DNA from: a virus
DNA: 26,450 nucleotides
IMG/VR virus record: IMGVR_UViG_3300034102_004172
Location: 1 to 26,450 of that record
Reading direction: 5' to 3' (one strand)
The notes beneath the pieces are model-generated. The model saw only the letters and a program-made list of their open reading frames with translations, had not been told where the DNA came from and made no database searches. A program made the translations under genes and the position numbers. This document shows, in pieces, positions 1 through 20,639 of the stretch. Each line of letters begins with the position of its first letter. Within the stretch, counting starts at the first letter, position 1.

Positions 1-955
1 TTGCTGGTAAAAATGATGATGGTTTATCCTCAAGGTCGTCATATGAACCAGTTATAGCTACAGTAGATAAATTTGGTTTATTGGTCAAATCCAAATAATC
101 TAGTTGAATTCTGCTTCCAGATCCTAGATTGTCCCAATATGAAGCACTTGTTGGGAGAATGGCATCATTATTTGCCTTTGCTTTGTATACGTTACCGTTG
201 TAGTAAACGATATCTCCAACTAAATATGGATTACCATTTGAGGTTGAGTGACTTTGTGTGAATGGTGCTGCAGATAATGGAGGAACAGTGGGTTTGTTTG
301 TTAGGTCATTGTATGAACCAGATAAGGCAACTGTTGATAGTGCAGGCGCATCATTTAGATCATCATAACTACCGCTTAATGCTACATCAGATAAGACTGG
401 GGCACCTGTCAGTGATGAATAGGATAAAAATCCATTAGAAAATCCAACCCCATCAAATTTCACAACATGTCCACTTTGTGGAGATGTAATTGTAACATCA
501 GTCAAATCAGTTAATGCTTCTACTGAAGATTCTTCTACGGATTGATTAATCCAACCATTTCCATTCCATCTAATTGTTTGACCTACTGATGGAGCTGTAA
601 TATCAACATCTGTTAAAGTGCTGAGAGTAGTTGTAATACCTGGTTTATTTTTGATGTAATCCAGTGCATTAATATCAGATTGATTCCAGTCTGTTTGAAC
701 TGGTGGTTGTGGAATAGTTGGTCTGTTTGAAATATCTGTATAATTTAATGTTGCGGGAATGAAATTGGTACCATCGGATCTCAACACTTGCCCTTGAGTG
801 AAGTTCCCACTGATATTGATTTGTAAATTTGTACCATTACCGAGATCATTATAAATTTCGTTAATGGTAGAATTTACTTTTTGAGCACCAGTGCGAAGAG
901 TATCCCCAGTACCATCATTCGATTGTGATCCCACATTGATGGTTTGTTTTGCCAT
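1..955 (-). CDS. Tail-fibre/baseplate protein with gp10-like N-terminus (partial, C-terminus off window)
   Basis: The frame is open from ATG at 955 to the left edge, so at least 318 residues are present and the C-terminus is missing. The N-terminus (MAKQTINVGSQSNDGTGDTL, then KVNSTINEIY) matches the T4 gp10 start pattern of a short beta strand, DDGTGD and INENFDELY, which in T4 roots the fibre on the baseplate. Downstream are phage-fibre repeats: two 'LTDV-ITsP-G' units near residues 125-185 and three 'VALSGSYDDL-ND/TNKP' units near 200-315. Residues about 240-278 (YLVGDIVYYNGNVYKAKA ... SYWDNLG) look like a carbohydrate-binding module of the CBM5/12 type. An AAGGAG ribosome site (969-974) lies 13 bases upstream, behind a late promoter. 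Position after the giant gene equals that of gp10 in T4. Fibre identity is fairly sure; gp10 orthology rests on the N-terminus and order only. Confidence 0.8.
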   Translation of the reverse strand, partial: MAKQTINVGSQSNDGTGDTLRTGAQKVNSTINEIYNDLGNGTNLQINISGNFTQGQVLRSDGTNFIPATLNYTDISNRPTIPQPPVQTDWNQSDINALDYIKNKPGITTTLSTLTDVDITAPSVGQTIRWNGNGWINQSVEESSVEALTDLTDVTITSPQSGHVVKFDGVGFSNGFLSYSSLTGAPVLSDVALSGSYDDLNDAPALSTVALSGSYNDLTNKPTVPPLSAAPFTQSHSTSNGNPYLVGDIVYYNGNVYKAKANNDAILPTSASYWDNLGSGSRIQLDYLDLTNKPNLSTVAITGSYDDLEDKPSSFLPA

Positions 956-983: not shown

Positions 984-991
984 TATTTATG
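984..991 (-). promoter_or_regulatory. T4-type late promoter (CATAAATA) for the fibre gene
   Basis: The minus strand reads CATAAATA, one base from the T4 late consensus TATAAATA and matching the NATAAATA form known from cyanomyoviruses. It overlaps the stop codon of the giant gene (987-989) and sits about 28 bases upstream of the fibre ATG, followed by the AAGGAG site. This should let the fibre gene be transcribed independently of the 16-kb gene before it. T4-type late transcription uses a gp55-like sigma factor, which is not in this window. Confidence 0.6.
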
Positions 992-3900
992 ATTGATCAA
1001 AGGTCACCGCAGTACCATCAAATGATACAGATGTTGAATCGAATAGGAAACTCTCTTCATTTTCATCTACTTCATTTATAATTTCAATAGTGGGATATGC
1101 ATAATTTGATCCACTATTCACTAGATCGACTCTGGATACACCAACTAATGCTTTGATTTGAGCATCAAATCCAGTAGCAGAGTCAATACTTACCGAAGGT
1201 CTTGATGTATATCCGTCCCCACTTGATGTAACCGAAAGAGTTTTAATTCTTCCCTTAATAATGTCTACTAATGCCGATGCATTTCTTCCAAATACAGATC
1301 CAGTATAATCGAACGTGACCAGAGAGTTTGATGACTCAATAATAGCAACTGTTCTATCTTTATCTTCACCTTCAATTTCCAGTTCATCTCCAGTTTCGAT
1401 TGGAGGAACAACGTCAGCAGCGATAACGTCAGCATCAGAACCAATGTAAGAGAATGCAACAAAACTGGATCCAGATCTAGGAATTTCTGCAAAAATAATT
1501 CTAGAACCAACTAGTTCAAATGCAACTCCAGGTTCCTGGATAACACCATTCAGTGAAACAATCAAGTTATTTTCTGGTTTAATATTTGAGGACTCGGAAC
1601 CAGCAGTAACAGTTAGTGAGTAGAATACTTCATCTAACTTGAGGTTGAAACTATTTCTGAGTGAGTCAAATTCAAAACTAATATCGTCAAGTTTCCTCAA
1701 TTTACCAATGTATGAAGAGTGGAATGTTGCCCCAAGTTCTGGGGGTTCTGAAAACTCAATGATGTCACTGAATGTGGTATATGATTGGCCTGGTGGTTGT
1801 AGAATACCATTTACGAATACTAATAAATGACCATCTGGATTTGGATAATATGCAGTTCCATTATTGATAGTTACCTTGAATGTACTTTGTACGCCATCAA
1901 ATCCTCTGAAACTCCTATCAATTCTACCAACAACTTCTCCAACTGAACTAATTATAGATCTATATCCAGACTTGGAAATAGTCTGTGCATATTGATTGAA
2001 TGTTCCCTTAACTCCACTTAGATATAGTCTGTACGCAGTACCAATAGGAATAATTCTCTCAACAAATCCATAAGCTTCTGATGAGATTATTTCTGCGTTG
2101 GCGATTTGCGCTACACCAACTGGGAAATTGTTATTTGGTTCATAGTATAGGATGGTGTCTCCGATAGCAAATAGATCTTCAGTTAAATTTCCAACATATA
2201 ATTCAACTGTACTACCCTCATTGATATAATCAATGATTCGTGCAGTCTGAGTCAAAATTGCTTCATTATTGACAACTCCACCAATCTCAAATACTGTAGT
2301 TTCTTCATCAGGTAAAGTTAGAGTCAATTTATAGATATTTGTCGTTTGAATTATATCAGCAAGACCAATTTGAGTACCCTCATAATACTCAACATCAATA
2401 TAGATATCACTAGTGCTTGAGTAAATTACAGAAGAAACATCAAAATTGCCTTCATAAAACTCAGTATCTAAAGTTAACTTGGATCCAGAATTGTCAAGTA
2501 CTGGAGCAGATACACTATAGAAGTTACTAATGGTTGAAATTGCACTAGTTTTAAATCCTTTTACTTTTTGACCATTTGTGAATGAACCAGTTAGATCTGA
2601 TACCTGTACTTTACTTGAGACTGATACCACAGTTGCCACATATCCATCATCATTTATTAGTATATTTCCGATTGAAAATTGACCAGAATTCATAACAATA
2701 TCTACATAATTAAAGTTTTCACTGTAACTATATGAATATACAGTTCCATTAATTGATGCAAATCCTTGTCTGGTGATTGTTTCGCCAACTTTAAAGATCT
2801 CAATTGGATTGCTGAAGTTTACTCTAATTCTAGTGAGTAATTTCTTTATTGTTGCACGGTTAGTAGTGATAGACTTAATCTCACCATTAATTTGAGATGT
2901 CAATCCATAGATATAGTCACCAGAATTTAATCCTCCTAGAATACCAGTATCATCTATTCTGGATGGGTATATTGAATTTGGTACTGTGATTCCATTTTCT
3001 GCAATAATTTCATTGTCTTCAATATATGATGAATTGTTTAGTGTATTGAGTAAGATTGACATCTTGCTATCAATAAACGCATTAATCTCAGATATTTCAG
3101 ATGCAGTTAAAGCAATACTAGTATCTGTATATGAATAGAATCCAGTATTAGGTGCTGGTGATACTAAACTCTCTGCTATGGCCTGCTTCATGTAATCCCT
3201 AACTTTAGTGTAGGCAAAGAGACTTTGTACTAACTCACCTTGTAGGGAAATGATAGTACCAGTTGCAGCATCAATATATGACTGAGTTGCGAATAGGATT
3301 GCACTATTTCCATTTGTCAATAGATCATATACAATCGCATCCATGATATACCCCATATCACGTAAGCACTTATCATTTCCACCAGGGACAGAGAATGTTG
3401 GGTAATTCTGTAGTGTCACTAGCATTGTCTCTGCCTTGATATAGTTCTTATTGAACATAATCAGTTTAGCAGCATTTCTATATGCAATATTTGAAGCACT
3501 GTCAGTTGTTCTAGTAATACCAGTTAGGTTTCCATTCTGTACTGCTTGTGATAGGATTGCGAATAGAGTAGTAATAGCGGAAGCAACATTAGCACATTTT
3601 GGTGTGCTTGTGTCTACAGTTACATCGAGGTCTTTGACTTGAGTTTTGGTTGTATATCCACCTAAAGTAATGGTCTCATTACGCATGGCCTGAATTGCCA
3701 TGTCCCTTGCCTGATTAAATGCATATACTGCTTGTACTTCCTCTCCAGCAAGATATCCATTAGTAATGTACAACTGAGCAGCATCATACATCTTATGGTT
3801 TCCACCATAACGAATATTGAAAGACAACTCACCAAGAATCGCAATGATATCATCAATACAATTCTGATTGCCATTTGGAATAGTGAACGTTGGATACTGA

Positions 3901-6900
3901 TTCAACATTCTTCCTACTGCAACTTCTGCAATTAGTTGCTTGTTTGCTTCAATTAGATTTGCTGCATCAAAGTTTCTATTCTGGTATTGATCTCTCTCTG
4001 GTAGAAGAATAGAGATTGCCTTTGTGAATAGAGTATCAATTGCGGATTTAATATTTGCACATTGACCACCATAGGTACCATCATCTAGAGTAATTGTATT
4101 GTCAGTGTACTTAGGTGTAGACGACCATTGTGCAGAGTATATTGTATTTGTTCCAGTAATTCTCCAATTATCTACAGCATATTGGCAAAGTCTATTTGTT
4201 TGCTCAAGAGCATAGATTGTTGGTAGAAGTTCATCCTTCACATATAGGATATCATTCACAGCATTGATATAATATGTCATAGCATCAATAGTATTAGCAT
4301 CACCACCAGAAATCAAGTCTGCGATGATTGATGGGATGATATAATCTTTAATGTCTCTAATGCAAGTATTTTTACCTTCTAGTCCGTTTGGATAAACAAA
4401 CGCATTATATGGAACTCCATTCAAGTAGTATGTGAAATAATTAGTAGTTAATCCTACAGATTCCTCTGCAATAAATTTCCTGTTGAACCAGAGAGCATTT
4501 GACGCATCCTTATATACATCACCAGTTGTGCATAGTACTTCATTGATCAATGACCACAAAGTATCAATTTTGGATCTAACGTCAGCGCAATCTCCAGGAT
4601 CTGTGGTAATGTCAAGAGGCTTAATAGGACTTTGATTTGTGTATTGTGGTGTTTGTGATAGATCTCCAATAACAGCTTGCTGACATAGAAGATTCATTTG
4701 CTCATGAGCATATAGACTTTGCAGAACCTGCTTAGTAATATATCTCAAACCGCCATTTTCATCAATATAGAATCTTGCTCCAGTTAAGGTATTATAATTT
4801 CCACCCTTTTCAATATCATCAGCAACTGCTTGTAGTAGAAGATTTAGGTCAAGTTTGCATCTGCTAGTTCCATCACCTGTTCCATCCTCATCTCCTGGAA
4901 TAATCAAATCAGAATATAGATTCTTCATTCTTCCAGCAGCTTCTTCGATGATATAAGTTGCATTCAATCTAATTAAATTAGCTGCATCTCTAAATCTGTG
5001 ATGTGTATCATCATAGAATTGATATGTGATAATTTTATCAGTTGCAGAATATACTTGCTCCACATCAAATGGGATATCCAAGTATGTGGAAATTATCGCA
5101 GTAACTGTTCCAATATTAGTTCTTGTTATAGAAGAAATTGATCCAGTGCTAATACCTTGGGTTACTATCGCAAATAATGTGGTGATAGAAGATGCAACGT
5201 CAGCACAATCTCCAGGGATATAAACTCCTGGTTCTCCAGATTGATCTCCCTCTACAGTCAGATCCTTCACTTGAGTTCTGGTTGTATAACCACCTAAAGT
5301 GATGGTCTCATTACGCATGGCCTGAATTGCAAGATCTCTTGCCTGATTAATTGCATAAACAGACTGAGTTTCTTCACCTGCCAAATATCCATTAGTGATG
5401 TATAATTGTGCTACATCATACGCTCTATGGTTTCCACCATATTTTACGTTAAAGCACAATTCATCCAAGATAGAAATGATATCATCAATGCAGTTTTGAT
5501 TTCCATTTGGTACAGTAAATCCAGGGAAGTTTGCTAGCATTCTTCCTACTGCAACATCCGCAATTAGAAGTTTGTTAGCAAGAATTAAATCAGAAGCATC
5601 TGCGTATCTTCCTGATACAATGTCATCATTTGAAACAAATGACTTATCAGTTGAAATTGTATCTCCAATAGAGAATGAACCAGACTTCTCACCAAGGAAA
5701 ACATATTTTAATGCATAGTTAACTCCAATAACCTCTGCTGTGAATCCGCCATTAGTTACAATTTGATCTCCTGCCTGGAAGTTTCCTCCCAATAGAGATT
5801 TGTATGCCAATTTCTGAACCATTGCAGTTTCATTAGCAGTAAAATCACCAGTTGAATTGATATATTCAATTTCTAGATTTTGGATAAATTCTCCATTTTG
5901 GAAAGTTGTGGAATCATCATATACATTTTCGAATGTTGTTGATGAAACAATTTCAAATTCTGGGAATTTACCTTCGACCTTTAAAGTGGAATCATCTAAA
6001 TCTACAACTTCAATACTAGACTTACTGATATCATCAATGATGACATTGGGGTATTCTGGTTGTATAATTCTGTTGTATAGCAGAGCAGAGAAAGTACTTG
6101 GATCACTAATTGAAATTGATGAAAGTGGTTCACCAGTTGTTGGATCAATGTATGGACTGATACTTGTTACTCTAGCAAGAATTCCTGTTTTAGCAGAGAT
6201 GATGTAATCATTAAACTTAATATCCAATAGTCCAGAAGGACTTTCATAGGTACCAGAAGTTTTACTAACGATAATTTCATTAGTTACTATACTTGTAGTA
6301 GAATCTAGGTTGATTTCTTCAACAACAGCAGTTTTTCCGCTGGTGTTTGTGATAGATTCTTGGAATTGGAAGGTATTTGTATTTTCTAGTTCTGTTACAG
6401 AAACTAAATTAGCACTCAATCCTGTTGCAGATGCAAGAATGATTTCACCTTCTTGGAAAGTTCCATTGATATTGAATACTCTAATGGTGGAAGTTGTTGA
6501 CGAAATTACAGTCGCTGTAGCAAGGCTCAAAATACCTCTAATTGTCTGACCAAGTTCTGGTAGAATACCACTAGAATCTTCAATTGCAATCTCATATGAT
6601 GGTAGGAATTGCAATGTTAACATTGCATAACTTACCTTTGTTGGTGCAGGAGGTGGCTCTTTAAATACGATGCTTCCTTGAATGATCTCATATGATTCTA
6701 CTGGTGATTGTGCAATACCATTCAGAATTACTTGTACTTGACTGGTATTGGCAATAATTGTAGAACCATCAATAGTTAGTGGGAAAGAAGTTCTTTCACC
6801 ATCAAATAGATTTGAAATATCATCAATTTTCTGTACATATGAAGTGAGAATTTCTTCCGATGAAGTTAGTCTCTTAGTTCTGAATAAAACTTGAGTATTA

Positions 6901-9900
6901 TCAAACTCTTTGTATACAGGTTCAACGAGACCAAAGTTGTCAATATTTGCAACTACTGAACTCTCAATCAAATTAACACTCTTTGTCAATTGGAAATCTG
7001 TTTTATCAGTCAGTCCTTTTTCTTCATTGTAAACTCCAATTTCACCAAATAATTTAAATCCAGTTGGGTGAGTGTTGTCTAGTACAATAGTCTTCCATTG
7101 GTCGATTGAAACTGGGCTCTTAATGTTATATGAGAAGGCCTGATATAGATAAGAGTCCTGTACCTTCTGTACAATCTCGTTGGTTTTACCAACGTCATCG
7201 AGGAACTTACCAGCAGTTTTTGTGATTGAATCGACCTGAATAACTCCTTTCGCAGCATTGATATTATTGATTGTTCCACTAGATTTAGAAATTGTTCCAG
7301 TCACAATCTGACCTTCTGCGAAGGTACCTTCGGTATCGATTAGTTTTAGTAGTCTAGGACCAATTTGCCATCCATCATTTCCAGAAACATATCCTTTTGC
7401 AGAAGAGTTTTCCAGAGAATCTCCCTGATAAACCAATTCACCAGAAAGGAATCTACCAGTTTCTACAACTGCTTCTGCAGATCCACCAAATGAATTGGTT
7501 AGTAGAATCTGTCTACCACTACCAGTATTCACGAATGAAATATAGTTACCAGATTCTGCATCTCCTGGTGTCAGAGCAATTCTCAACTGATCATTTTCAA
7601 GACCAGCAGTAGTTCCAGAAATAGCATAGTAAATTTGACCAGGAACAATGTATCCAAATGAAGTGATTGGGAATGCTGCACCCTCACCCAAATCTTGAAT
7701 GTCAAATGTTATTTCAGACCCATTTCCAATACCATGTGGGAATGGTAGTTGGAATAGACCAAGATCTAGGTTGATTACGTAGGTAAATGTAGATTTTAGT
7801 TCAATTGTTGGTTCGGTACTATATCCAAATCCAGGATTTTTGATTAGAATACCGCTAATTCTACCGTTTCTAATTTCTGCCTCAGCAGTAGCGCCAGATC
7901 CACCGCCACCAGTGATTACAACTTCAGGGATAGAAGTATAACCGCTTCCTGGATCAATTACTTTAATATTGCTCAGTACACTAGTATTGATTAATTGTAA
8001 GTTTACTGGGAAAGTGATTTCTGGTCTAAGTGTATAGTCATGGGTATAATCGAAACCAAAGTTATTGTTTCTTAATTTTTTGATTTTACCTACGTTCTCA
8101 CCCTTAACGAAAATAGAAGCTCCAGTTCCTTTTGGTGGAATGATTACCTCAAGAACGGCACCAGAACCAGCTAGATTTGGACCAAGAATACCATCAATAG
8201 CATCAACATCAACAAATGCCTCAGTGTATCCCTTTCCAGGATCCGTAACAACAACCTCAATGATTTGGCCAACTGGATCACTATTTCCATCTACTCTAAT
8301 TCTAACCTTACCTCCGTTACCATCTCCAAGAATTGGTACACCAAAGTACTCACCTGGTTCATATTCAGTTCCAGGAGTTCTAATTTCAACTCTCTCAATC
8401 TTTCTAGATGATTGGATGTCAGTAATGATTGGTAGTTTTTTGTAGAATCCACCACCACTGATCAGACGAATCGATGAAATCGATCCAGCAACTTTTGTTG
8501 ACTCTGTTGAGTATGATGATGTGAATGACTGTGCATTCTTTTCTGGGTCGATATCCAATTTAAACTTAAACTTATTAGCACCCGTAGTGACAGTAGCTCC
8601 TTCCAAAGAACTAATTTCAAATCTTCCAATGTATGGACTTCTAACTACGTCAATGTAGGAAGATTTTGCTACTGGACTGAATTCATTAATTCTGGATGGG
8701 TCTGCATAGTAACTGATATTAGAAACATCATCCGTAACCTTAAACGAAATGAATGGAGATACCCCAGGAGCATCTAATCCAGGAGTTCCTCTTCTTACAA
8801 TATTTTTGAATGTGTATTCAATCTTGTTGAGATTATCTCTATAGAATGATAGGTAATATCCTTGGTTTGATGGATCTGATACATCAAACGTATACTGTTG
8901 CCCATAAATGAATTTAAATACTGGATGCTTGACGTAAATTAAGATTTGCGTACCAGATCCAATAAACGATCCTGGAACTTCCCTTATTTGGAAAATAAAT
9001 TCTCTCTGAGAAAGAACCTGATCTACGTAGAAAGATCCATCTGCATAGGTATATTGTGGACTTGTTGATCCAAAAATATTATCTCCAGCATTTAAGTAAT
9101 GTGAAGTTGCACTTCTAATGTAAATTCTGTTTGTATTTGAAATTTCATCAATTTGAAGAGTCTTCTTGAGATTTGTGATTAGAGTAATCTTAGTTACAGA
9201 GGAAAGACCTGCAATAGTGACACTATTTCTTGCAGTATTGAAACTAAAATATGAACTTCCTAGAACAACTACAGAACCTTTAGCATACGGAGATCCTGCA
9301 ATAATTTCATCAATTCTTACTGCATAGTCATCATCACTATATGGTTTAAATGTTGCCTCTACTTCTACTGGGATATTAATTGCAAAAGTTCCTGGAGAAG
9401 TATTTACTACGCCCTCAAATCCATAATTTACAATTTCATTGATGGATTCATCCGAACTTCCTAAAGTGCCAGAATCAACTACAAAAGAACCAGTAGTATC
9501 AGCAACATAGATGTAATTATTGGAATAATCGATATCTACAATTTTTGCAGATGCAATGATAGCATTCAGACTATTTCTTTGAAGAAGATTTGTACCAACA
9601 TTGAATCTAAAATCTTGATTGATGTGTAATTGTCTAATGTTATCTAACTTCGATACATTGAAGTAATTGAAGAAGAATTTGCCAAATGCTTTAGATGAAA
9701 ATACTGCCTTTCTTCCACCTGGAGAAGGAACTGTAGCAGTTCTTGTACTCCAAGAATCATATACTGTGGTAGGAATATGATAATCTTGTGTCAATCCTGA
9801 TGTAGCAGCATTGAAATCTAATATTTGAAGTCCATCTGGACCAAGTGCATATGGGATATTGATGAGTTCTAAATTATTAACTACAGGAATAGTAATATTG

Positions 9901-12900
9901 GATCTGGTAATATCAAAACTATTATTTGTCAAATTGATAGTACCCATTCTCTCTGAGTCTGCATTCTTATCAAACTTCATTATGAAACCACTAGGATTCG
10001 CATAGTCAAAACCACTAAATTCTGCAGTAGGAGCACTGGTGTATGCTATAGCGTAATTACTATATCTGAACTCATCCAACTTGACTGGCCAAGAATTATA
10101 TGATGTAGTTGATCCAATTTCTACTGTTGATGGATTTAGATTGAAACCAGTGGTAATCTGTGCAACAGATGAACCATTAAAATATAAAGTATAAGTTGCA
10201 ATCGAAGAAGATGTGTTATAAGATTTGCTTACTGAAATGTGTCTATATCCACTACTCAACAGAGTCACTGCGTTAGTGATAGTAGTAAACTGTGAAATGG
10301 TAGCCCCACCATTGGAGATTCTTAATTTTCCAAAAGTTGATGGTGAAGAACTATCAGCAAATACCGAAACTTTAATTGAATTTGTTCCATCGGTTATGGT
10401 CAATAAATCTGGAACTTTTGCAGATGCTGCAGTATCCCACTTAAACCATCCTTCAATGGTCCAAACGTTTGACTGTGTTGTTAGTGCTGTTGCAGATAAT
10501 TTTGCATTTTGTGAAATAGTGTAGGCATTGGTGCCGAACTTGGGATCAGTGTTTACACTAACTGTTCCTGTGGATGTTAGGTTTGCATATCTACCTACAG
10601 TATCTGAATATGAAGATCCCTTATATAAGAACTGTGTTCTATTTTCAATGATATTACCAACTAAAGTAGGATCTCCAGAAACATCAGATGAACACTTGGA
10701 AATTTCTACTCCTTCTAGAGAGGTCATCTCATAAGAATTCAAGATATCACCATTAAACTTACACTTAATGATACCAGAATGCAATTGCGATGTGATATCC
10801 ACTGCAGTATATCCGATTGCAATTTCACCAAATATATCGATGGATGATTTTGCTGCGGATAGTGAAGTGATACTTGGGATTGAATATTCTTTATTGAAGA
10901 TTAAATCTCCATCTGCATCAACTTTAATTAGTGCTAGTTTTGTTTTTGTTGATGTGGATGAGTTCTCTAATGCAGATGTGATGTATAACTCATCATACTC
11001 ATCGATAAGCAGGCTCAGATCTTCGAACTTGGTATTTGAATATGATATTTCCTTTTGCCAAATCGTGTTGATCTTAGATCCATCAATCTTACACTTCACT
11101 AGAAGAATATTATCTGCTGCGGTTGACTGACCCAAAATATAAATGTTATTGTCACTATCAACTTGAATTGACTGTAGTTTTTCTGATGAAGATGTTGAAG
11201 TAATTTTTCTCTTGATTAGGACATCACCACCATTAGAAATATAGAATACAATTCCGTCGTTTACTCCATTGCTATTTGTTGTGGTATATCCACACGCAAC
11301 TACATTCTCTCCATATGCTGCAATATCTGTGATGTAATCATTTCTGTTTACTCCACTAATACCAGCAAGTTCTCTTTGCCAAGATAGAGATACTTCAGTG
11401 CCACTAGAATTTTCAGTATATTTTGCAATGAAAATATCTGGGTTGAATGCAGATGCTGAAAGTGGATTTGGGTAAGTTTGTCCAATTACATAAACATCTA
11501 GTCCATTTTTAGTTACGGATAATAATTGACAACGCTTCGCCTGTGCCGAAGGTTGAATAGATGTTAGTGATTTTGACCATAGTGTAGTACCCTCAGCATT
11601 TAACTTACTGATGTAACCATGGATATCACCATTTGTTGAAGTCACTGATCCAACATAGTATAGATTTTTGTTCTGATCTACAAATGAATTGTTAATGTTT
11701 ACTCCAGATTGATACTTTTTGTTTACTGAATAGTATACTGATCTCTTTTGGATTTGTGGGTGAGATATTCTAATTTTTGGATTGTCAACATATCCTCTAC
11801 CAGAATTTGTGATATTGATTTTATCGAGGATACCTGTTTTTCCTACTACTGCCTTGACCTCGGCTTCTTGACCACTAATACTATCGATAAATGCTTCAAC
11901 TTCGATATTTGGATCATATCCAATACCACTTACTTCTACACTTACTTCCTCTAAACCTTTTACGGTAATGACCTTGAGTGTTTTACTTGTAGGTTCCATG
12001 ATTGGAGTTGTATCAACACTCACAAAGTCACCGATTTCCATATTGTGTGGTACAGCGGTCTGTACTACACCAAAATATTCATCCTGTGCGGTATTGTATT
12101 CGTATGTGTATGAAGTGATCTGTTCTCCTTGAATGGATTTAATTGATGCAGATGCACCATATCCTTCTGTACCTTCATCATCAAAAATCAGTCTATCATT
12201 GACTTGATAGTTAATACCTGGGTTTTCGATCAAGAAGTCTGAAATTTTTGCTTCTTCAAACTTTGTTGTAGTTTCAACTTCAATATCAACCTTTGATGAA
12301 ATATCAATCTTGGGGAAATAATCGAAGAGTTCTAACTTAGATTCTTCGAAAATTTGATCAGGATCACTCGCCTCAGATGAATCGATGAAACCATCTCTAT
12401 TTTCATCCTCAATTTCAAACGTTAGGACATCACCATTCTCTAGAGTTAGAGCATTTGTACTTTCATTTGGATCTCTTTCTACATCAATATCAACATTTTC
12501 AAATGGTGCTCTGTATCTAACAATACCAGTAGGGATGTTAGACTGGATTGCAAACTGCGTTAGATTCCAACTATCTGGAATTGAGTAGAAGTTTGGTCCA
12601 ATGATATATGGGAAAGCAGCACTTCCATCTGCATTTAAAGTTACGAAATAAGCATACGTACCTTCTGGGAATTCAGGAGTTTTGGTGAATCTGCCATTAT
12701 ATTGATCGAGATAAAATGCCTCACTTCTGAATACATACTCATAATCTTGAATGAAAGTTCCTGCAGGGAAGTCTTGTAAAGATGGACCTGCAATTCTATA
12801 TGGTTCTGGGTTAGTTACACTATTGAATACCAGATTCGTCTTAAGGCTGTAACTACTTTGGATTGGTACAATGTTGCTACTTAGATTTGTTGGGTCAGAC

Positions 12901-15900
12901 AGTCCATATGGACCATAAATGGGATTGCCATCAAATGCCCATCCAATGATTGGAGAGTGAACAATACCAGACTGCTTCTCTACAATAACTCCATTTTCTA
13001 CAGTTAAGTTATCGCCAAGTACATATCTTAGTTGCTTTGGATTTGATACGTGCCCATATTCTCCACCAAATTGCTTGTTAAATCCTTCGAAGATAGAACC
13101 GTTTGCATAATCAAAGTTTGTGTTGCTGTTTAAGTTATAAGTCCACTCAAAAATTTCAGTTTGGAAATCTGCTCCTTCTCCAATAGATTCTAGTCTAATT
13201 TGAGTAGTACCTGGTTTATACCCAATACCTCTATTCAGAATAGTGATGGAAATCACTCTTCCTGCTTCTAGTCCTTCGGATTGAATATTTGCTCTTGCTA
13301 CAGCACCATAACCATCACCAGTAATAATGACCTTAGGAGCGGTAGTATAACCGTTACCAGAGGCGATAACTGCAATTGATACAATCCTGCCATTATTTAC
13401 ATACGCCTGTGCTGCAGCGCCTTCTCCGCTGCTTAGAACGACTTTAGGCTCTGATGTGTAATCTTGACCAGATGATACTACAAGTACTTCTTTGATTGGT
13501 CCTCTAACAAACGCCTCAGCAGCTGCTCCAGACCCTCCTCCACCAGTAATTGTAATGGTTGGTTTTGATGTATATCCTGAACCTGGGGTATTTACTAAAA
13601 TTCTAGATACAACTCCTTTTGTGACGATAGCAGTTGCTGATGCACCCTCTCCGTCGCCACCACCAGAAATTGAAACTAGAGGAGATGATGTGTATCCAGA
13701 ACCACTATTTGTTACAACAATCTCAGAAAGAGATCCATTTACGACAACACTACCAGATGCACCAGTACCATTTCCACCAACAAAATCAAGTACTGGTGGA
13801 TTTGCTGCGTCATAATTCTTTCCATAATTTAGTATATTTACTTTAGTTACTCCACCATATTTGTAGGTGGAATCTGATTTGTAGTTCCATACAGAAATAC
13901 CATTCACAAATGAACCAACAGGACCATATTGTGTTTCTGGTTTTAGTGAGATTGTTGATGGTACTTTGGGGAATCTATATAATTTTCTTTGGTTGCCTGG
14001 AAGTAATGAAGTACCTACAAAGGGACCAATCTTATAGTTTGGAATACCTGATGTAGCTACATAGACATACTTGCCATTAAAGAAAGTATTCTGAATATTG
14101 GTAGCAAACTTATTAATTGAGTTGTTGATTGATGGAACATCACTCTTTCCTTTGTTCAAGTCAATCGAGATTAGGATATTGCCTTGAGGATTTAGAGTTG
14201 CTGGTTGAGGAAGTTCGTATTTGAATACAGTTGCGCTTTCTCTTGAAGTTACTAGGAACGTTCCATTGTATACAATTGGGTTTGCACCATATACAGTAAC
14301 TTGATCTCCAACTAGAAGACCGTGAGCAGATGTGCAATTGACAGTCGCAGTTTGATCATTGATACCACCATATGTGATACTATCGATCTGCAGTAGTTTT
14401 TTGACGTTATACAACCAAGATCTGATTAGATTGTTATCTTCAATAGATCCTAATTTAGATACTGAAAGTTTATCTCCAGGTAGATAGTAACTACTTTCAT
14501 CAGTTAGTTGGGTATTACCAGACTCAACGATACCAAGAACTGATAGAACTACTTCTTCGGTAGTTCCCTGATTCGAATAGATGTAGAAGTTTGATGTACA
14601 AATAGTTCCAGAATCCCAAGACGCTGGTTCCTGATTAATGCCTCTAGTACATTCAATAAATTGAGTTAGTGATTTCTCCTTATAGCGAATTATCTCAGTA
14701 CCAATAATAACTTCTCCGTTCTTTTCTGGCCATCCAATTGTGGAGTCTACAGTAATAATAGAATCTTGATCTGATAGTGGTTCTGCAAGTCTAGTCTTAT
14801 ATGGAATGACGAATTTACCATTAATGGATTCTTCAGAAAGAATCAATTCATATACGTCAAAGTTTGCAGTCTGAATTGCAGTGAAGTTCTCTACTGTTGC
14901 AGATGCATACAGAACATTAGTATCCACTACATCCGCATTTTGCTCTAGAAGAGAGTCTTTTAGATTTTGGGGATTTCCAGAGATTAGTTTAGCACGAAGG
15001 ATGGTATCAATAGACCAAGTTGCTGCAGATGGTTTAATGATCTGGTCTTTTGGATAGGTGATATCAATTTCAACACCGTATAGAATTTTAAATAGGTATG
15101 CAATTGAATTCTTAGTACCCTTAGATGCATAGAAATCTTTTATAGTTCTAAGAACATTTGAGATGTCAATAGAATCAATATCCAGTTGAGGCATTCCTGG
15201 AAGATACTGAGATGTAATCTTCTCCATGATTTTTCTGAGGAATACCGCATCAAGTCCTTTAACATCGCTACCACTGATGTGAGATGCTTTGATGGATTCT
15301 GATTCTGATTTAAATACAGCATTATCCTCAGAATCATATTCTACGATTCCACTAACTCCTCTGCTACACTGAGCAAATTCTGACTTTGTATAGTTTTTAC
15401 CTGGGTTAATTACACGAAATCCAGTAATTTCACCAATTCCAATTTGAGCAGAAGCTTTTGCTCCAACTGGAGAAGAGATGAATACCTTTGGTGGAAACTC
15501 AATCGAATAATTTTCTCCAAATTCAGTAATATTGATATCGATAATCTGCCCGTTGAAAACTGTCGCTACAGCCTTTGCGCCAGTTCCTCCAATTGGGTTA
15601 CCTAAGTTATCTACTCTATCATCAACGATGTATACGCTAGGAACGTCATCATATCCAAAACCTCCAGATAGAAGTTCAATACCAATAACTCTTCCAAAAC
15701 TATCAACTTCAACATCCAAAATTTGAGCACCAGTTGGTTCAATTACCGAAACTCTTGGAAGTTCTGTTTGACTGTATCCAACTCCACCAGAGATGACAGT
15801 GATTGAAATGAGTTCACCAGAGGCGTTTATATTGCCCTGTAGGAGTGCTGTAATTCCATTTGCGGCGTCTGGGGCATCAATGTAGATTTGAGGCGCTGTA

Positions 15901-17255
15901 GAGTATCCAGAACCACCTTCTAAGACTTGTACAGATAGAACTACACCATTCTGATTAACGACAACATTTCCTACTTTTGCTCCAGATGGATTAACAAACT
16001 GAATTCTTGGTACGAAATCATATCCACTTCCACTATCGATAATATGGATTTCGTCAATACCACCATTATCGTTTACTGTAACGAGTCCTTTCGCAACAGA
16101 TCCTTCACCATTAGTGGGAGCTTGGATAGAAACTAGTGGAGGATTTTCCTTGGAGTATCCTTTTCCAGAGTCAATCAGTGTGACTGTTTTGACTCCACTT
16201 ACTAGAGCTTCTGCAGTTGCATTAGTACCAGTACTCTTAACGAGAGAGACTTTTGGTGTATTTTCTACTTTATATCCAGATCCACCATTTTTAACTAGGA
16301 TAGATTCTAGTTGACCAGAATCATTTACTACAGAAACTGCAGAAGCATCGCTACCAACATTAAGTAGAGGTGCATTGATGTATGCTACAAAAACCGATTC
16401 TGTTGGATACTGTTTAAAGATGATAGTGTCAGAATACAGACTAAAATCTTTAATTGGTGTTAGTAAATTTCCATCTACAATTGCAATAACTAAACTTGTA
16501 GATGAAGGAGAAGATGCAACTCCATTCACCTTAAGTTTGAAGTCATATCTAACTTCTTCTACGTTAGTATTGAGAATTGGTAATTGGTCAAATACCGCAA
16601 TTTCAGATTCTTGGAAACCCTTTAGATAGATAATTTTAATATCTTCACTAGTATCTCCAAGATTTATTGGATCATATTGTCTTGGTGGATTAGTGAATCT
16701 AATTTTGTCACTTAAGATTTGATAATCAACGCCAGGAATTAAGTATTCATTGTATAATTTTACAATGACATGCTCATTTGATGGTGGATAAACTGGTTCG
16801 TTATTTACCGTTAAATCGAACTCGAAGTTTATACCATCAAATTCTCTATATGGATTGAATAGAGGAACTAGTTTTTTATTGAATTCTGCATATGAAATAT
16901 CAGGAGTTAGGATGACATTTGGAGACTTCCTGACAAATTCATAATAAATTACTTCATCATCAATCAGTAGAGTTCCATTTTCTTCTGGAAATCCATCTGT
17001 TGTTTCTACTTCAATATTTCTGATATCTGCAGAGATGTCAGAAATCAACTTCGTATTGCTTCTTAACTGAGATACTTCATACTTAGAAAGATTGAAGTAG
17101 TCTGGTAGATTATTTAAAATGCCAACAGGCCCGCCACCTCTCTCCTGAGAACTATAATATGCTCTCAGAAATTTCTCGAAGAGTGGATTTTCCTCTTTAA
17201 TGAAATCTGGTACTTGATTTAGTACAGAAAGGGATGCTGATGCTAAGTTATGCAT
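987..17255 (-). CDS. Giant 5422-aa modular virion protein, in the gp7-gp8-gp9 position of the baseplate cluster
   Basis: One uninterrupted frame of 5423 codons, with ATG at 17255 and an AGGAG site (17269-17273) 13 bases upstream. The first 60 residues (FIKEENPLFEKFLRAYY, then GGGPVGILNNL) resemble N-termini of large cyanophage virion proteins. Visible modules by residue: 'NGILQ'-type beta modules about 140-300, 3480-3550 and 5117-5268; GSGY beta-repeat arrays about 305-630, 1140-1365, 2925-3150 and 5330-5395; IG-EIIxY...CTRG elements near 95 and 860; an HGLxVGD module near 980; a YHYH domain 1400-1555 (GWAFDGNPIYGPYG, YNGRF, TPEFPEGTYAYFVT, FPYIIGP); a beta-propeller-like region 1842-2200; a LamG-like domain 2250-2410; five helical repeats 3880-4710. 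I see no transmembrane segment or catalytic motif. It lies between gp6 and a gp10-like fibre, where T4 has gp7, gp8 and gp9, so a baseplate-periphery role is inferred. No clear gp7, gp8 or gp9 sequence match is visible to me. Confidence 0.9.
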   Translation of the reverse strand: MHNLASASLSVLNQVPDFIKEENPLFEKFLRAYYSSQERGGGPVGILNNLPDYFNLSKYEVSQLRSNTKLISDISADIRNIEVETTDGFPEENGTLLIDDEVIYYEFVRKSPNVILTPDISYAEFNKKLVPLFNPYREFDGINFEFDLTVNNEPVYPPSNEHVIVKLYNEYLIPGVDYQILSDKIRFTNPPRQYDPINLGDTSEDIKIIYLKGFQESEIAVFDQLPILNTNVEEVRYDFKLKVNGVASSPSSTSLVIAIVDGNLLTPIKDFSLYSDTIIFKQYPTESVFVAYINAPLLNVGSDASAVSVVNDSGQLESILVKNGGSGYKVENTPKVSLVKSTGTNATAEALVSGVKTVTLIDSGKGYSKENPPLVSIQAPTNGEGSVAKGLVTVNDNGGIDEIHIIDSGSGYDFVPRIQFVNPSGAKVGNVVVNQNGVVLSVQVLEGGSGYSTAPQIYIDAPDAANGITALLQGNINASGELISITVISGGVGYSQTELPRVSVIEPTGAQILDVEVDSFGRVIGIELLSGGFGYDDVPSVYIVDDRVDNLGNPIGGTGAKAVATVFNGQIIDINITEFGENYSIEFPPKVFISSPVGAKASAQIGIGEITGFRVINPGKNYTKSEFAQCSRGVSGIVEYDSEDNAVFKSESESIKASHISGSDVKGLDAVFLRKIMEKITSQYLPGMPQLDIDSIDISNVLRTIKDFYASKGTKNSIAYLFKILYGVEIDITYPKDQIIKPSAATWSIDTILRAKLISGNPQNLKDSLLEQNADVVDTNVLYASATVENFTAIQTANFDVYELILSEESINGKFVIPYKTRLAEPLSDQDSIITVDSTIGWPEKNGEVIIGTEIIRYKEKSLTQFIECTRGINQEPASWDSGTICTSNFYIYSNQGTTEEVVLSVLGIVESGNTQLTDESSYYLPGDKLSVSKLGSIEDNNLIRSWLYNVKKLLQIDSITYGGINDQTATVNCTSAHGLLVGDQVTVYGANPIVYNGTFLVTSRESATVFKYELPQPATLNPQGNILISIDLNKGKSDVPSINNSINKFATNIQNTFFNGKYVYVATSGIPNYKIGPFVGTSLLPGNQRKLYRFPKVPSTISLKPETQYGPVGSFVNGISVWNYKSDSTYKYGGVTKVNILNYGKNYDAANPPVLDFVGGNGTGASGSVVVNGSLSEIVVTNSGSGYTSSPLVSISGGGDGEGASATAIVTKGVVSRILVNTPGSGYTSKPTITITGGGGSGAAAEAFVRGPIKEVLVVSSGQDYTSEPKVVLSSGEGAAAQAYVNNGRIVSIAVIASGNGYTTAPKVIITGDGYGAVARANIQSEGLEAGRVISITILNRGIGYKPGTTQIRLESIGEGADFQTEIFEWTYNLNSNTNFDYANGSIFEGFNKQFGGEYGHVSNPKQLRYVLGDNLTVENGVIVEKQSGIVHSPIIGWAFDGNPIYGPYGLSDPTNLSSNIVPIQSSYSLKTNLVFNSVTNPEPYRIAGPSLQDFPAGTFIQDYEYVFRSEAFYLDQYNGRFTKTPEFPEGTYAYFVTLNADGSAAFPYIIGPNFYSIPDSWNLTQFAIQSNIPTGIVRYRAPFENVDIDVERDPNESTNALTLENGDVLTFEIEDENRDGFIDSSEASDPDQIFEESKLELFDYFPKIDISSKVDIEVETTTKFEEAKISDFLIENPGINYQVNDRLIFDDEGTEGYGASASIKSIQGEQITSYTYEYNTAQDEYFGVVQTAVPHNMEIGDFVSVDTTPIMEPTSKTLKVITVKGLEEVSVEVSGIGYDPNIEVEAFIDSISGQEAEVKAVVGKTGILDKINITNSGRGYVDNPKIRISHPQIQKRSVYYSVNKKYQSGVNINNSFVDQNKNLYYVGSVTSTNGDIHGYISKLNAEGTTLWSKSLTSIQPSAQAKRCQLLSVTKNGLDVYVIGQTYPNPLSASAFNPDIFIAKYTENSSGTEVSLSWQRELAGISGVNRNDYITDIAAYGENVVACGYTTTNSNGVNDGIVFYISNGGDVLIKRKITSTSSSEKLQSIQVDSDNNIYILGQSTAADNILLVKCKIDGSKINTIWQKEISYSNTKFEDLSLLIDEYDELYITSALENSSTSTKTKLALIKVDADGDLIFNKEYSIPSITSLSAAKSSIDIFGEIAIGYTAVDITSQLHSGIIKCKFNGDILNSYEMTSLEGVEISKCSSDVSGDPTLVGNIIENRTQFLYKGSSYSDTVGRYANLTSTGTVSVNTDPKFGTNAYTISQNAKLSATALTTQSNVWTIEGWFKWDTAASAKVPDLLTITDGTNSIKVSVFADSSSPSTFGKLRISNGGATISQFTTITNAVTLLSSGYRHISVSKSYNTSSSIATYTLYFNGSSVAQITTGFNLNPSTVEIGSTTSYNSWPVKLDEFRYSNYAIAYTSAPTAEFSGFDYANPSGFIMKFDKNADSERMGTINLTNNSFDITRSNITIPVVNNLELINIPYALGPDGLQILDFNAATSGLTQDYHIPTTVYDSWSTRTATVPSPGGRKAVFSSKAFGKFFFNYFNVSKLDNIRQLHINQDFRFNVGTNLLQRNSLNAIIASAKIVDIDYSNNYIYVADTTGSFVVDSGTLGSSDESINEIVNYGFEGVVNTSPGTFAINIPVEVEATFKPYSDDDYAVRIDEIIAGSPYAKGSVVVLGSSYFSFNTARNSVTIAGLSSVTKITLITNLKKTLQIDEISNTNRIYIRSATSHYLNAGDNIFGSTSPQYTYADGSFYVDQVLSQREFIFQIREVPGSFIGSGTQILIYVKHPVFKFIYGQQYTFDVSDPSNQGYYLSFYRDNLNKIEYTFKNIVRRGTPGLDAPGVSPFISFKVTDDVSNISYYADPSRINEFSPVAKSSYIDVVRSPYIGRFEISSLEGATVTTGANKFKFKLDIDPEKNAQSFTSSYSTESTKVAGSISSIRLISGGGFYKKLPIITDIQSSRKIERVEIRTPGTEYEPGEYFGVPILGDGNGGKVRIRVDGNSDPVGQIIEVVVTDPGKGYTEAFVDVDAIDGILGPNLAGSGAVLEVIIPPKGTGASIFVKGENVGKIKKLRNNNFGFDYTHDYTLRPEITFPVNLQLINTSVLSNIKVIDPGSGYTSIPEVVITGGGGSGATAEAEIRNGRISGILIKNPGFGYSTEPTIELKSTFTYVINLDLGLFQLPFPHGIGNGSEITFDIQDLGEGAAFPITSFGYIVPGQIYYAISGTTAGLENDQLRIALTPGDAESGNYISFVNTGSGRQILLTNSFGGSAEAVVETGRFLSGELVYQGDSLENSSAKGYVSGNDGWQIGPRLLKLIDTEGTFAEGQIVTGTISKSSGTINNINAAKGVIQVDSITKTAGKFLDDVGKTNEIVQKVQDSYLYQAFSYNIKSPVSIDQWKTIVLDNTHPTGFKLFGEIGVYNEEKGLTDKTDFQLTKSVNLIESSVVANIDNFGLVEPVYKEFDNTQVLFRTKRLTSSEEILTSYVQKIDDISNLFDGERTSFPLTIDGSTIIANTSQVQVILNGIAQSPVESYEIIQGSIVFKEPPPAPTKVSYAMLTLQFLPSYEIAIEDSSGILPELGQTIRGILSLATATVISSTTSTIRVFNINGTFQEGEIILASATGLSANLVSVTELENTNTFQFQESITNTSGKTAVVEEINLDSTTSIVTNEIIVSKTSGTYESPSGLLDIKFNDYIISAKTGILARVTSISPYIDPTTGEPLSSISISDPSTFSALLYNRIIQPEYPNVIIDDISKSSIEVVDLDDSTLKVEGKFPEFEIVSSTTFENVYDDSTTFQNGEFIQNLEIEYINSTGDFTANETAMVQKLAYKSLLGGNFQAGDQIVTNGGFTAEVIGVNYALKYVFLGEKSGSFSIGDTISTDKSFVSNDDIVSGRYADASDLILANKLLIADVAVGRMLANFPGFTVPNGNQNCIDDIISILDELCFNVKYGGNHRAYDVAQLYITNGYLAGEETQSVYAINQARDLAIQAMRNETITLGGYTTRTQVKDLTVEGDQSGEPGVYIPGDCADVASSITTLFAIVTQGISTGSISSITRTNIGTVTAIISTYLDIPFDVEQVYSATDKIITYQFYDDTHHRFRDAANLIRLNATYIIEEAAGRMKNLYSDLIIPGDEDGTGDGTSRCKLDLNLLLQAVADDIEKGGNYNTLTGARFYIDENGGLRYITKQVLQSLYAHEQMNLLCQQAVIGDLSQTPQYTNQSPIKPLDITTDPGDCADVRSKIDTLWSLINEVLCTTGDVYKDASNALWFNRKFIAEESVGLTTNYFTYYLNGVPYNAFVYPNGLEGKNTCIRDIKDYIIPSIIADLISGGDANTIDAMTYYINAVNDILYVKDELLPTIYALEQTNRLCQYAVDNWRITGTNTIYSAQWSSTPKYTDNTITLDDGTYGGQCANIKSAIDTLFTKAISILLPERDQYQNRNFDAANLIEANKQLIAEVAVGRMLNQYPTFTIPNGNQNCIDDIIAILGELSFNIRYGGNHKMYDAAQLYITNGYLAGEEVQAVYAFNQARDMAIQAMRNETITLGGYTTKTQVKDLDVTVDTSTPKCANVASAITTLFAILSQAVQNGNLTGITRTTDSASNIAYRNAAKLIMFNKNYIKAETMLVTLQNYPTFSVPGGNDKCLRDMGYIMDAIVYDLLTNGNSAILFATQSYIDAATGTIISLQGELVQSLFAYTKVRDYMKQAIAESLVSPAPNTGFYSYTDTSIALTASEISEINAFIDSKMSILLNTLNNSSYIEDNEIIAENGITVPNSIYPSRIDDTGILGGLNSGDYIYGLTSQINGEIKSITTNRATIKKLLTRIRVNFSNPIEIFKVGETITRQGFASINGTVYSYSYSENFNYVDIVMNSGQFSIGNILINDDGYVATVVSVSSKVQVSDLTGSFTNGQKVKGFKTSAISTISNFYSVSAPVLDNSGSKLTLDTEFYEGNFDVSSVIYSSTSDIYIDVEYYEGTQIGLADIIQTTNIYKLTLTLPDEETTVFEIGGVVNNEAILTQTARIIDYINEGSTVELYVGNLTEDLFAIGDTILYYEPNNNFPVGVAQIANAEIISSEAYGFVERIIPIGTAYRLYLSGVKGTFNQYAQTISKSGYRSIISSVGEVVGRIDRSFRGFDGVQSTFKVTINNGTAYYPNPDGHLLVFVNGILQPPGQSYTTFSDIIEFSEPPELGATFHSSYIGKLRKLDDISFEFDSLRNSFNLKLDEVFYSLTVTAGSESSNIKPENNLIVSLNGVIQEPGVAFELVGSRIIFAEIPRSGSSFVAFSYIGSDADVIAADVVPPIETGDELEIEGEDKDRTVAIIESSNSLVTFDYTGSVFGRNASALVDIIKGRIKTLSVTSSGDGYTSRPSVSIDSATGFDAQIKALVGVSRVDLVNSGSNYAYPTIEIINEVDENEESFLFDSTSVSFDGTAVTFDQS
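3629..3950 (-). repeat. Near-duplicate DNA copy, helical repeat 4
   Basis: This segment aligns without gaps to 5261-5582 at an offset of 1632 bases over about 270 bases or more. Roughly four of five bases match by eye. At the protein level about 80 of 98 residues are identical, from AVGRML to TQVKDL, including 20 consecutive shared residues around QAMRNETITLGGYTT. The other repeats in the array are far more diverged, so this pair looks like a recent duplication or gene-conversion pair. Confidence 0.8.
5261..5582 (-). repeat. Near-duplicate DNA copy, helical repeat 1
   Basis: This is the partner of the copy at 3629-3950, in the same orientation and reading frame. The two are separated by repeats 2 and 3, which do not share this level of identity. 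Confidence 0.8.
7790..8480 (-). repeat. GSGY beta-repeat array 3 (giant protein, residues about 2925-3150)
   Basis: Five degenerate units are visible, with signature turns GGGFYKKL, GTEYEPGE, GKGYTEAF, GSGYTSIPEVVITGGGGSGA and GFGYSTEP. Between turns the pattern is (I/V)xx(I/V)xVxxxG, typical of short alternating beta strands. Confidence 0.75.
13180..13850 (-). repeat. GSGY beta-repeat array 2 (giant protein, residues about 1140-1365)
   Basis: This is the most regular array, with six units. Turns are GKNYDAANPP, GSGYTSSP, GSGYTSKP, GQDYTSEP, GNGYTTAP and GIGYKPG. Each is followed by a VxIxGGGGxGAxAxA glycine/alanine loop and a GxVxxIxVxxxG strand, giving a period of about 35-40 residues. The array precedes the YHYH domain. 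Confidence 0.85.
15370..16350 (-). repeat. GSGY beta-repeat array 1 (giant protein, residues about 305-630)
   Basis: Eight units are visible, with turns GGSGYKVENTP, GKGYSKENPP, GSGYDFVP, GGSGYSTAP, GGVGYSQTELP, GGFGYDDVP, GENYSIEFPP and GKNYTKSE. They alternate with Gly/Ala-rich linkers such as PSGAKV and GTGAKA. The same unit recurs singly near residues 1770, 1825, 5345 and 5380, and in the separate 1402-aa protein. Confidence 0.85.
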
Positions 17256-19701: not shown

Positions 19702-20120
19702 TAATTTACTGGTCTCTCTAATAGGAATTTGTTATTAATGATTTGAGGTTCTCCAATAATTCTATATGTCAGAGTAACTACTATTGCACTATCATCATCT
19801 TCTATAGCAGTCACAAGAACATCTAAAACATCAACTCTAGGTTCAAAATTTCTAATAGTATTTAGTATCCTATCCTTCAAATCTATAGCAGAAAATGCAT
19901 CAAGAGGTTCGAATAGCATATTATATACATCAGAACCAATTGATGGATCCATTAATTTTTCACCAAACTTGGTCATAATCAAGTTTTTAATAGATTGTGT
20001 AACGGCAGATTCGTCTCTGAGAGAGATTACGTCGTTAGTTAGGGGATTTTTGCTGAAATTTGTGCCTACATCTCTAAAAGATCTAGGCGTAGCCCTAAAA
20101 ATACTATCGGAATCTGCCAT
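19701..20120 (-). CDS. gp25: Baseplate wedge protein gp25 (TssE/gp25 lysozyme-like fold family)
   Basis: This 139-aa protein is close to the length of T4 gp25 (132 aa). It carries the family's conserved EPR core motif in IRNFEPRVDVLDV (about residues 88-100), preceded by the SIKNLIMTKFGEKLMDPSIG segment (about 43-62) typical of gp25. In T4, gp25 staples wedges to each other and to the sheath initiator. Despite the historical 'lysozyme-like' label, no catalytic site is expected. The gene is the first of the late operon, 29 bases downstream of an exact late promoter. Its ribosome site is weak: only GAAG at 20135-20138 is visible. The stop is shared with the gp6 start. Confidence 0.93.
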   Translation of the reverse strand: MADSDSIFRATPRSFRDVGTNFSKNPLTNDVISLRDESAVTQSIKNLIMTKFGEKLMDPSIGSDVYNMLFEPLDAFSAIDLKDRILNTIRNFEPRVDVLDVLVTAIEDDDSAIVVTLTYRIIGEPQIINNKFLLERPVN

Positions 20121-20148
20121 TATATGACACTATACTTCTATTTTGTAT

Positions 20149-20156
20149 TATTTATA
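20149..20156 (-). promoter_or_regulatory. Late promoter TATAAATA upstream of gp25
   Basis: The minus strand reads TATAAATA, an exact match to the T4 late-promoter consensus recognised by the gp55-type sigma with the sliding-clamp activator. It lies about 29 bases upstream of the gp25 ATG and 10 bases past the stop of the 59-aa gene. It should drive gp25, gp6 and the giant gene. I found no equally good late promoter between gp6 and the giant gene. Confidence 0.75.
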
Positions 20157-20165
20157 TGGGATATC

Positions 20166-20345
20166 TTAGTGCCATCGCTCCACATAATCATCAAAACCAC
20201 CCTTACCTCCACATGGTCGTGAGTACCTATCGATGGGTGGGTCATTTTTTCGCATTTCGGGAACGTAATCGGTAACTAATCTAGTAGTACCCCACATTTC
20301 CTTCATGTATTTGGTGTCTCTGTCAGGATTTGAGTTCATTGCCAT
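20166..20345 (-). CDS. Small hypothetical protein, 59 aa
   Basis: A complete short gene: ATG at 20345, TAA at 20166-20168, with an AGGAG site at 20353-20357 only 7 bases upstream, among the best-placed in the window. The product starts MAMNSNPDRDTKYMKEMW and ends GGKGGFDDYVERWH. It is polar, rich in charged and aromatic residues, with one cysteine and no membrane segment. I do not recognise it. It sits between an intrinsic terminator (20399-20440) and the gp25 late promoter, so its own promoter must lie in about 55 bases where I see no convincing box, or it depends on read-through. The strong ribosome site supports a real gene. Confidence 0.7.
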   Translation of the reverse strand: MAMNSNPDRDTKYMKEMWGTTRLVTDYVPEMRKNDPPIDRYSRPCGGKGGFDDYVERWH

Positions 20346-20398
20346 CTGTTTTCTCCTAAGAATAGATTAAAACAGAACTTTTTACGGGGTTGCTATCC

Positions 20399-20440
20399 CG
20401 AAAATAAAAGGGTACTACACTCAAATGAGCGTAATACCCT
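20399..20440 (-). terminator. Rho-independent terminator
   Basis: On the minus strand AGGGTATTACGCTC pairs with GAGTGTAGTACCCT over 14 bp, including two G-T wobbles, around an ATTT loop. A TTTTATTTT tract follows at once. It ends transcription coming from the 46-aa gene and the PAAR operon before the 59-aa gene and gp25. On the plus strand the stem is not followed by a T tract, so it acts in one direction. Confidence 0.9.
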
Positions 20441-20471
20441 GCATGTTAGCAAAAATTAGTGTAAAAGTTGA

Positions 20472-20612: not shown

Positions 20613-20639
20613 ATTCGGATATCGGTTAAAGACTTGAGT

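Follow-up and report, generated by a model that had tools for sequence, protein, structure and literature searches.

The window analysed here is the whole 26,450-base virus record, a fragment of a T4-like cyanophage, and it carries the following genes around one very large open reading frame.

2..955, minus strand: gp9/10-type connector or fibre gene, cut by the window end (PF07880, 2.1e-6; phrog_677 'connector', 4e-25)
987..17255, minus strand: giant gp7 (baseplate wedge), 5422 aa (open reading frame; phrog_701; same length in S-CREM1; dN/dS 0.051)
17293..19701, minus strand: gp6, baseplate wedge, upstream of the giant (PF21379, E 1.6e-16; phrog_219, 8e-183)
19701..20120, minus strand: gp25, baseplate wedge, upstream of the giant (PF04965)

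Beyond gp6 and gp25, on the upstream side of the giant, lies the gene of a PAAR protein, and the gene directly downstream (2..955) has an N-terminus of the T4 gp9/10 type. The giant starts with ATG, contains no internal stop and occupies 61.5% of the window, in agreement with the preliminary description, which had placed a single gene of more than 60% of the window between gp6 and a fibre with a gp10-like N-terminus; both neighbours were identified by profiles (PF21379/phrog_219 and PF07880/phrog_677). Among isolates, Synechococcus phage S-CREM1 is the closest; its ORF163 has the same length of 5422 aa, occupies the same place and aligns with the giant over its full length at 89.45% identity with zero indels. 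The overall dN/dS between the two orthologues is 0.051 at a dS of about 1.3, that is, with strongly diverged synonymous sites, and the values for individual blocks range from 0.019 to 0.068, every block being constrained. Given an S-CREM1 frame of the same length without any indel and this low ratio, the giant is a real gene and not a chance frame.

Two further stretches on the upstream side were noted. For a 1402-aa protein (21181-25389, minus strand) that adjoins the PAAR gene, phrog_719 'baseplate wedge subunit' gave a match at 4e-89; ORF157, the orthologue in S-CREM1, carries the annotation 'lipoprotein lipase' and was judged unlikely to be structural (PMC9964418), contrary to which a tail-structural role looks more likely to us. 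The 537 bases at 20121-20657 hold no ORF of at least 80 aa, and the corresponding stretch of S-CREM1 is annotated with two ORFs, of 46 and 59 aa.

The gene order gp25-gp6-slot-gp8 is fixed in the relatives, the slot being the position after gp6 that the giant fills here, and the slot proteins range from 503 to 6483 aa:

Marzo (Stenotrophomonas phage): 503 aa
Mosig (pelagiphage): 874 aa
Melnitz: 896 aa
phiM19: 1007 aa
T4: 1032 aa
S-CRM01: 1454 aa
S-CREM2: 1937 aa (from PMC10665884)
ME01: 1942 aa
S-CAM7: 4314 aa
P-HM1: 4446 aa
P-SSM2: 5195 aa
window: 5422 aa
S-H38: 5512 aa
Syn19: 6483 aa

Zero to four genes stand between the slot gene and gp8 in the phages compared, and in several of them a VrlC gene is annotated after gp8. 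The position of gp8 is seen in the genomes of the relatives; the window ends before it. The records of P-SSM2, P-SSM4, P-HM1 and S-CRM01 already name the slot protein gp7, and these proteins, together with phrog_701, are orthologous to the giant.

Given that a phmmer comparison of the first 1000 residues of the giant with PDB sequences returned no match, a profile and fold approach was used. The T4 gp7 profile (phrog_964), run against whole genomes, gave a single match in each of S-CREM1 and Syn19 (E 2.8e-5 and 8.5e-6, respectively); each match lies within the giant and covers T4 731-758, and the search of these genomes for a separate gp7 gene thereby led back to the giant itself. PF23786 had the slot ORF as its only match in 11/11 non-T4 phages scanned. 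A slot-family profile, built from eleven slot proteins (N-terminal parts, window group excluded), reached the T4 gp7 family in hhalign at 98.3% (E 2.3e-14, T4 644-830) and was itself matched by the window family at 99.9%, while scores against it stayed at 17 or below for a partial gp18 and for seven further tail proteins of T4. The window family alone matched T4 gp7 directly at 94.4% with a score of 67.4, compared with a maximum of 23.5 among 60 column-shuffled controls; the hhalign E-values are those of single comparisons, for which the shuffles serve as the control. This direct sequence match spans about 31 residues, and beyond it the case for gp7 is carried by intermediates and structure. 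The core motif region of T4 gp7 (T4 725-760) is present in the giant. The helical domain (T4 643-689) scored 20.4 against the window family alone, no better than noise, and its match is reached through the slot-family profile, with an alignment that runs from T4 644. Neither of the Pfam families Gp7_5th and Gp7_6th matched the giant, the latter (domain VI, T4 920-1012) giving nothing at E 1.

The core of T4 gp7 (644-904), which comprises about 260 contiguous residues in T4, is present in the giant in the same order, spread over residues 11-3416. It is interrupted by about 520 and about 2,300 inserted residues, and about 2,000 more are appended at the C-terminal side. The three pieces are:

16938..17225, minus strand: gp7 N-cap, residues 11-106, corresponding to the helical domain of T4 gp7 (about 644-700); all smaller slot proteins match it with their N-terminus
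14502..15377, minus strand: gp7 middle core, residues 627-918 (pairwise matches to 960), DFYxSKGT motif and domain V; phrog_964 (on S-CREM1 and Syn19), hhalign and Foldseek/VIA
7008..7484, minus strand: gp7 C-core, residues 3258-3416, IKS..W..v...HPxGF motif (T4 gp7 845-904); hhalign 89%, E 2.3e-6

The E-value of the C-core was obtained before T4 entered the model, and this piece then also turned up C-terminally in each of the slot proteins and in the seven T4-type gp7 sequences, without exception; the aligned segment reads KSPVSIDQWKTIVLDNTHPTGF against KSNLPSSRWKSDVIRFVHPVGF. Since the N-cap and the middle core adjoin each other in S-CAM7 and P-HM1, residues 107-626 are an insertion of the window group. 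An AlphaFold2 model of residues 1-960 (35 sequences, mean pLDDT 77.8) had gp7 chains as its top three Foldseek matches in the PDB (9f4a, 5hx2 and 5iv5), and VIA aligned domain V of gp7 (763-851) with residues 745-918 of the giant at a Z of about 9. Model confidence was low in the motif helices (residues 707-750), and global TM-scores were also low, which we attribute to the 520-residue insertion and an uncertain arrangement of the domains. A profile search against T4 gp7, as suggested in the preliminary description, thus did recover the gp7 core, by way of the window and slot families and of the fold.

The giant accordingly shares with T4 gp7 the slot after gp6, a helical N-cap (recognised by way of the slot family), a DFYxxKG core, the domain V fold and a terminal HPxGF, all in the same order. 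The two proteins differ in that the 640 extra residues of T4 precede the core, whereas the roughly 5,000 extra residues of the giant lie inside and after it, and in that the Pfam families of domains V and VI do not match the giant. The compact gp7 proteins of Marzo (503 aa) and Mosig (874 aa) have the same slot and core pieces without the large insertions. Homology with gp7 and the conserved order of the core pieces are demonstrated here by computation: the giant is gp7, a name that is itself not new, as some cyanophage records use it.

Two other proteins have been given this role. According to earlier work, pelagi- and cyanomyophages lack gp7 and have VrlC in its place (PMC7029224), in which case the giant would be an extra peripheral protein. 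Against this published view, two VrlC proteins scored as noise against T4 gp7 (23 and 19) and showed no alignment to the slot-family core motif, phages with a plain slot protein of 874-1007 aa carry VrlC too, and the gp7 profile matches nowhere but the giant in the genomes of S-CREM1 and Syn19. We regard the substitution as very improbable and conclude, on these sequence comparisons, that VrlC is not the counterpart of gp7. Even less credible as the true gp7 is a 702-aa protein further downstream (S-CREM1 ORF166), in spite of its annotation as 'baseplate wedge initiator' in S-H38 (39380-41485) and its match to phrog_708 'baseplate wedge subunit': it has no gp7 core, it scores 19.6 against T4 gp7, and the gp7 profile again matches only the giant. 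Its likeness to the giant and its gp7-type name probably come from shared repeats.

The preliminary description had further proposed that the giant replaces the whole gp7-gp8-gp9 interval, on the grounds that neither gp8 nor gp9 could be recognised. Within the window there is indeed no visible gp8 or separate gp7, but gp8 could not have shown there because the gene that follows the giant is already cut by the window end, and that gene (2..955) is itself the gp9/10-type connector. In the complete genomes of the relatives, gp8 was found as a separate gene, namely ORF167 of S-CREM1 (510 aa, PF09215, E 1.8e-16), four genes downstream of the giant, and Syn19_091 of Syn19, three genes downstream (located by scanning the whole genome, T4 being the positive control), and a gp9/10-type gene lies directly downstream of the giant in both phages. 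PF09215 has no match in the giant in the Pfam search. The separateness of gp8 is thus established computationally, and the replacement claim has to be abandoned, the giant itself being gp7; the idea that it has absorbed wedge functions holds for gp7 and fails for gp8 and gp9. A fusion that took in gp8 and gp9 as well has only the size and position of the giant in its favour and, with gp8 encoded by its own 510-aa gene, PF09215 unmatched in the giant and a separate connector, we find it scarcely believable. The baseplate operon of S-CREM1 also contains a subtilase (PF00082, 3e-29; ORF165, 2846-4525) between the connector and gp8.

Apart from the gp7 core, the giant contains several other modules in its N-terminal half:

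16602..16868, minus strand: domain resembling the N-terminal adaptor domains of T7 gp17 and TSP4, residues 130-218, inside the first insertion (VIA Z 6.2-7.3; moderate)
15423..16295, minus strand: seven GxGY beta repeats, residues 321-611, inside the first insertion (repeat HMM)
13239..13829, minus strand: second GxGY repeat block, residues 1143-1339 (repeat HMM)
12630..13241, minus strand: YHYH domain, residues 1339-1542 (PF14240, E 4.8e-31)
10611..11708, minus strand: possible beta-propeller (SBBP-like), residues 1850-2215 (weak: SBBP, E 0.076)

A LamG/concanavalin module seen by eye at about 2221-2430 received no support from Pfam at E 1 and was dropped. The mosaic of adhesin-like modules that had been described for this protein is therefore clear as regards the YHYH domain and weakly suggested for the propeller; its LamG-type module was not confirmed, and the phycobiliprotein-like block treated below had been missed. 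The repeat regions of the giant (321-611, 1143-1339 and 5342-5380) also match phrogs 438, 460 and 1922, which are families annotated as gp8, head closure Hc2 and hub lysozyme; one repeat seems to be common to unrelated virion proteins.

Residues 3884-4739 form five tandem helical domains that resemble phycobiliproteins, the pigment proteins with which the host harvests light:

5151..5606, minus strand: phycobiliprotein-like domain 1 (3884-4035), CIDD and second Cys
4533..4994, minus strand: phycobiliprotein-like domain 2 (4088-4241), CKLD and second Cys
4005..4514, minus strand: phycobiliprotein-like domain 3 (4248-4417), CIRD and second Cys
3540..3968, minus strand: phycobiliprotein-like domain 4 (4430-4572), CIDD and second Cys
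3039..3482, minus strand: phycobiliprotein-like domain 5 (4592-4739), CLRD, no second Cys

PF00502 matches the giant at E 2.7e-14, with 53.9 bits against a gathering score of 22.2, and in a profile search of PDB sequences all matches at E <=0.01 (32/32) were phycobiliproteins or related bilin proteins. An AlphaFold2 model of residues 4401-4750 (pLDDT 86) was closest in fold to beta-phycoerythrin, with a best VIA Z of 16.8 (149 residues, 2.5 A), and 50/50 of the matches listed were phycobiliproteins or bilin proteins. According to the tool's own note, a largely helical model that lacks a clear match usually reaches about Z 14 at most. Fused haemoglobin chains, the first Foldseek matches of the helical model, were rejected as chain-length artefacts (rmsd 19). 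Against cyanobacterial beta-phycoerythrin-type proteins taken from genome contigs, hhalign gave 41.3, compared with a shuffle maximum of 17.9, and the phage Cys falls on the Cys of the CLRD motif. A different family, PF10849 (DUF2654, 70 positions), also scored above its cut-off inside domain 1, at about residues 3960-3999 (29.3 versus 25 bits).

The equivalents of the bilin-attachment residues Cys84 and Asp87 are kept in 120 of 121 distinct near-full copies of the domain and in 5/5 copies of the window. Among the 121, the motif types are CxRD (53), CxDD (48) and CxLD (13); CXRD is a bilin attachment motif in which the Cys forms the covalent bond (PMC10151467), and its Arg at position 86 occurs in those 53/121 distinct copies and in window copies 3 and 5. 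A second Cys at a beta-155-like position is found in 155 of the 178 copies that reach that far, including window copies 1-4, and the attachment Cys is retained even in copies without it. The pocket loop CYPNRRM (Asn72, Arg77/78) is absent, leaving a 7-residue gap in the alignments of the phage domains to phycobiliproteins, and for this reason we call the domains phycobiliprotein-like and not phycobiliproteins. With phycobiliprotein beta subunits (PF00502) and bilin-binding globins (BBAGs, PMC10151467) they have in common the fold, the DA..N register and the Cys-x-x-Asp motif, and often the second Cys, in some cases in a G-D-C context; they differ in their tandem arrangement within a virion protein, in the missing NRR pocket loop and in position 86, which is not Arg in more than half of the copies. 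The phage domains are likely homologous to phycobiliproteins, as the computed profile and fold matches show.

The domain turned up in 349 phage records, whose names all point to phages of Synechococcus, Prochlorococcus or cyanobacteria with the exception of one 'Marine'; the genes that encode it are those of baseplates and tail fibres. It is not confined to gp7: in P-HM1 (82.4-82.9 kb), S-WAM2, S-CAM1 and MED4-213 it lies in genes whose annotation is tail fibre or short tail fibre. It is absent from the pelagi-, methylo-, rhizobial and Stenotrophomonas phages with a gp7 slot that were found, a search of a plasmid collection gave no match, and the literature searched holds no mention of PF00502 together with phage.

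As to their use, we lean towards these domains being remote globin-fold relatives or structural spacers that carry no bilin and keep the Cys and Asp for disulfides or packing. The low sequence similarity to phycobiliproteins (about 20%), the missing 7-residue bilin-pocket loop CYPNRRM and the fact that globular domains can act as spacers in a virion arm all fit this, whereas the exclusively bilin-type PDB profile and listed VIA matches, the PF00502 score, the hhalign result with its aligned Cys, the retention of this Cys even without the second one and the domain not having been found in non-cyanophages speak against it. A purely structural use is fully possible. The bolder proposal, which we hold to be unlikely, is that the domains bind bilin covalently at the invariant Cys and that lyases of the host or the phage, such as CpeT, load them during infection, so that the virion carries pigment and cpeT, pebS and pcyA serve the particle at least in part and not host light harvesting. 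CpeT is present in S-CREM1, S-H38, Syn19 and P-HM1, and its benefit to phages has been described as speculative (PMC10452541). Among 14 genomes, cpeT occurs in 4/4 with a PF00502 match and in 2/10 without, the sensitivity of PF00502 being below that of the phage-domain HMM, and this co-occurrence is confounded by ancestry since all four PF00502 genomes are marine or estuarine cyanophages; we consider it suggestive and did not use it as evidence. CpeT was not found in several IMG/VR records that hold the domain, which may be fragments. A bilin reductase (PF05996) is present in P-HM1 and was not found in S-CREM1, S-H38 and Syn19, where any bilin would therefore have to be host-derived. Compared with bilin loading, a spacer or host-contact arm of host-protein origin is the safer reading.

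The structural role that had been proposed for the giant agrees with published proteomics of relatives, by which its presence in virions is supported: T4-GC969, the orthologue group of the Syn19 giant (Syn19_088), was identified in particles of S-SM1 (PMC3037559), and S-CREM2 ORF122, a shorter slot protein, yielded 91 peptides (PMC10665884). We contend that the best explanation as a whole, to which we assign a probability of roughly 0.9, is that the giant is the wedge protein gp7, with its core opened at two points and extended C-terminally and with the added blocks forming a skirt. As in T4, the gp7 core would sit in the wedge beside gp6, gp25 and gp53. The inserted blocks (fibre-adaptor-like, GxGY, YHYH and the five phycobiliprotein-like domains) would project outward as a peripheral skirt that may dock fibres and touch the host surface; gp8 and the gp9/10-type connector are kept as separate genes.

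No description of the core scattering or of the phycobiliprotein-like block was found in the literature searched, and such a row in a virion protein appears to be previously undescribed. The published puzzle of a gp7 that is 'absent' in cyano- and pelagimyophages and 'substituted by VrlC' is removed, as gp7 is present and, in the giants, scattered over more than 3,400 residues. In cyanophages, virion proteins contain phycobiliprotein-like domains in rows, with a bilin-attachment motif that is invariant; such domains are missing from those relatives found that infect non-photosynthetic hosts. It thereby becomes a testable question whether cyanophage particles carry bilin and whether phage CpeT serves this end.
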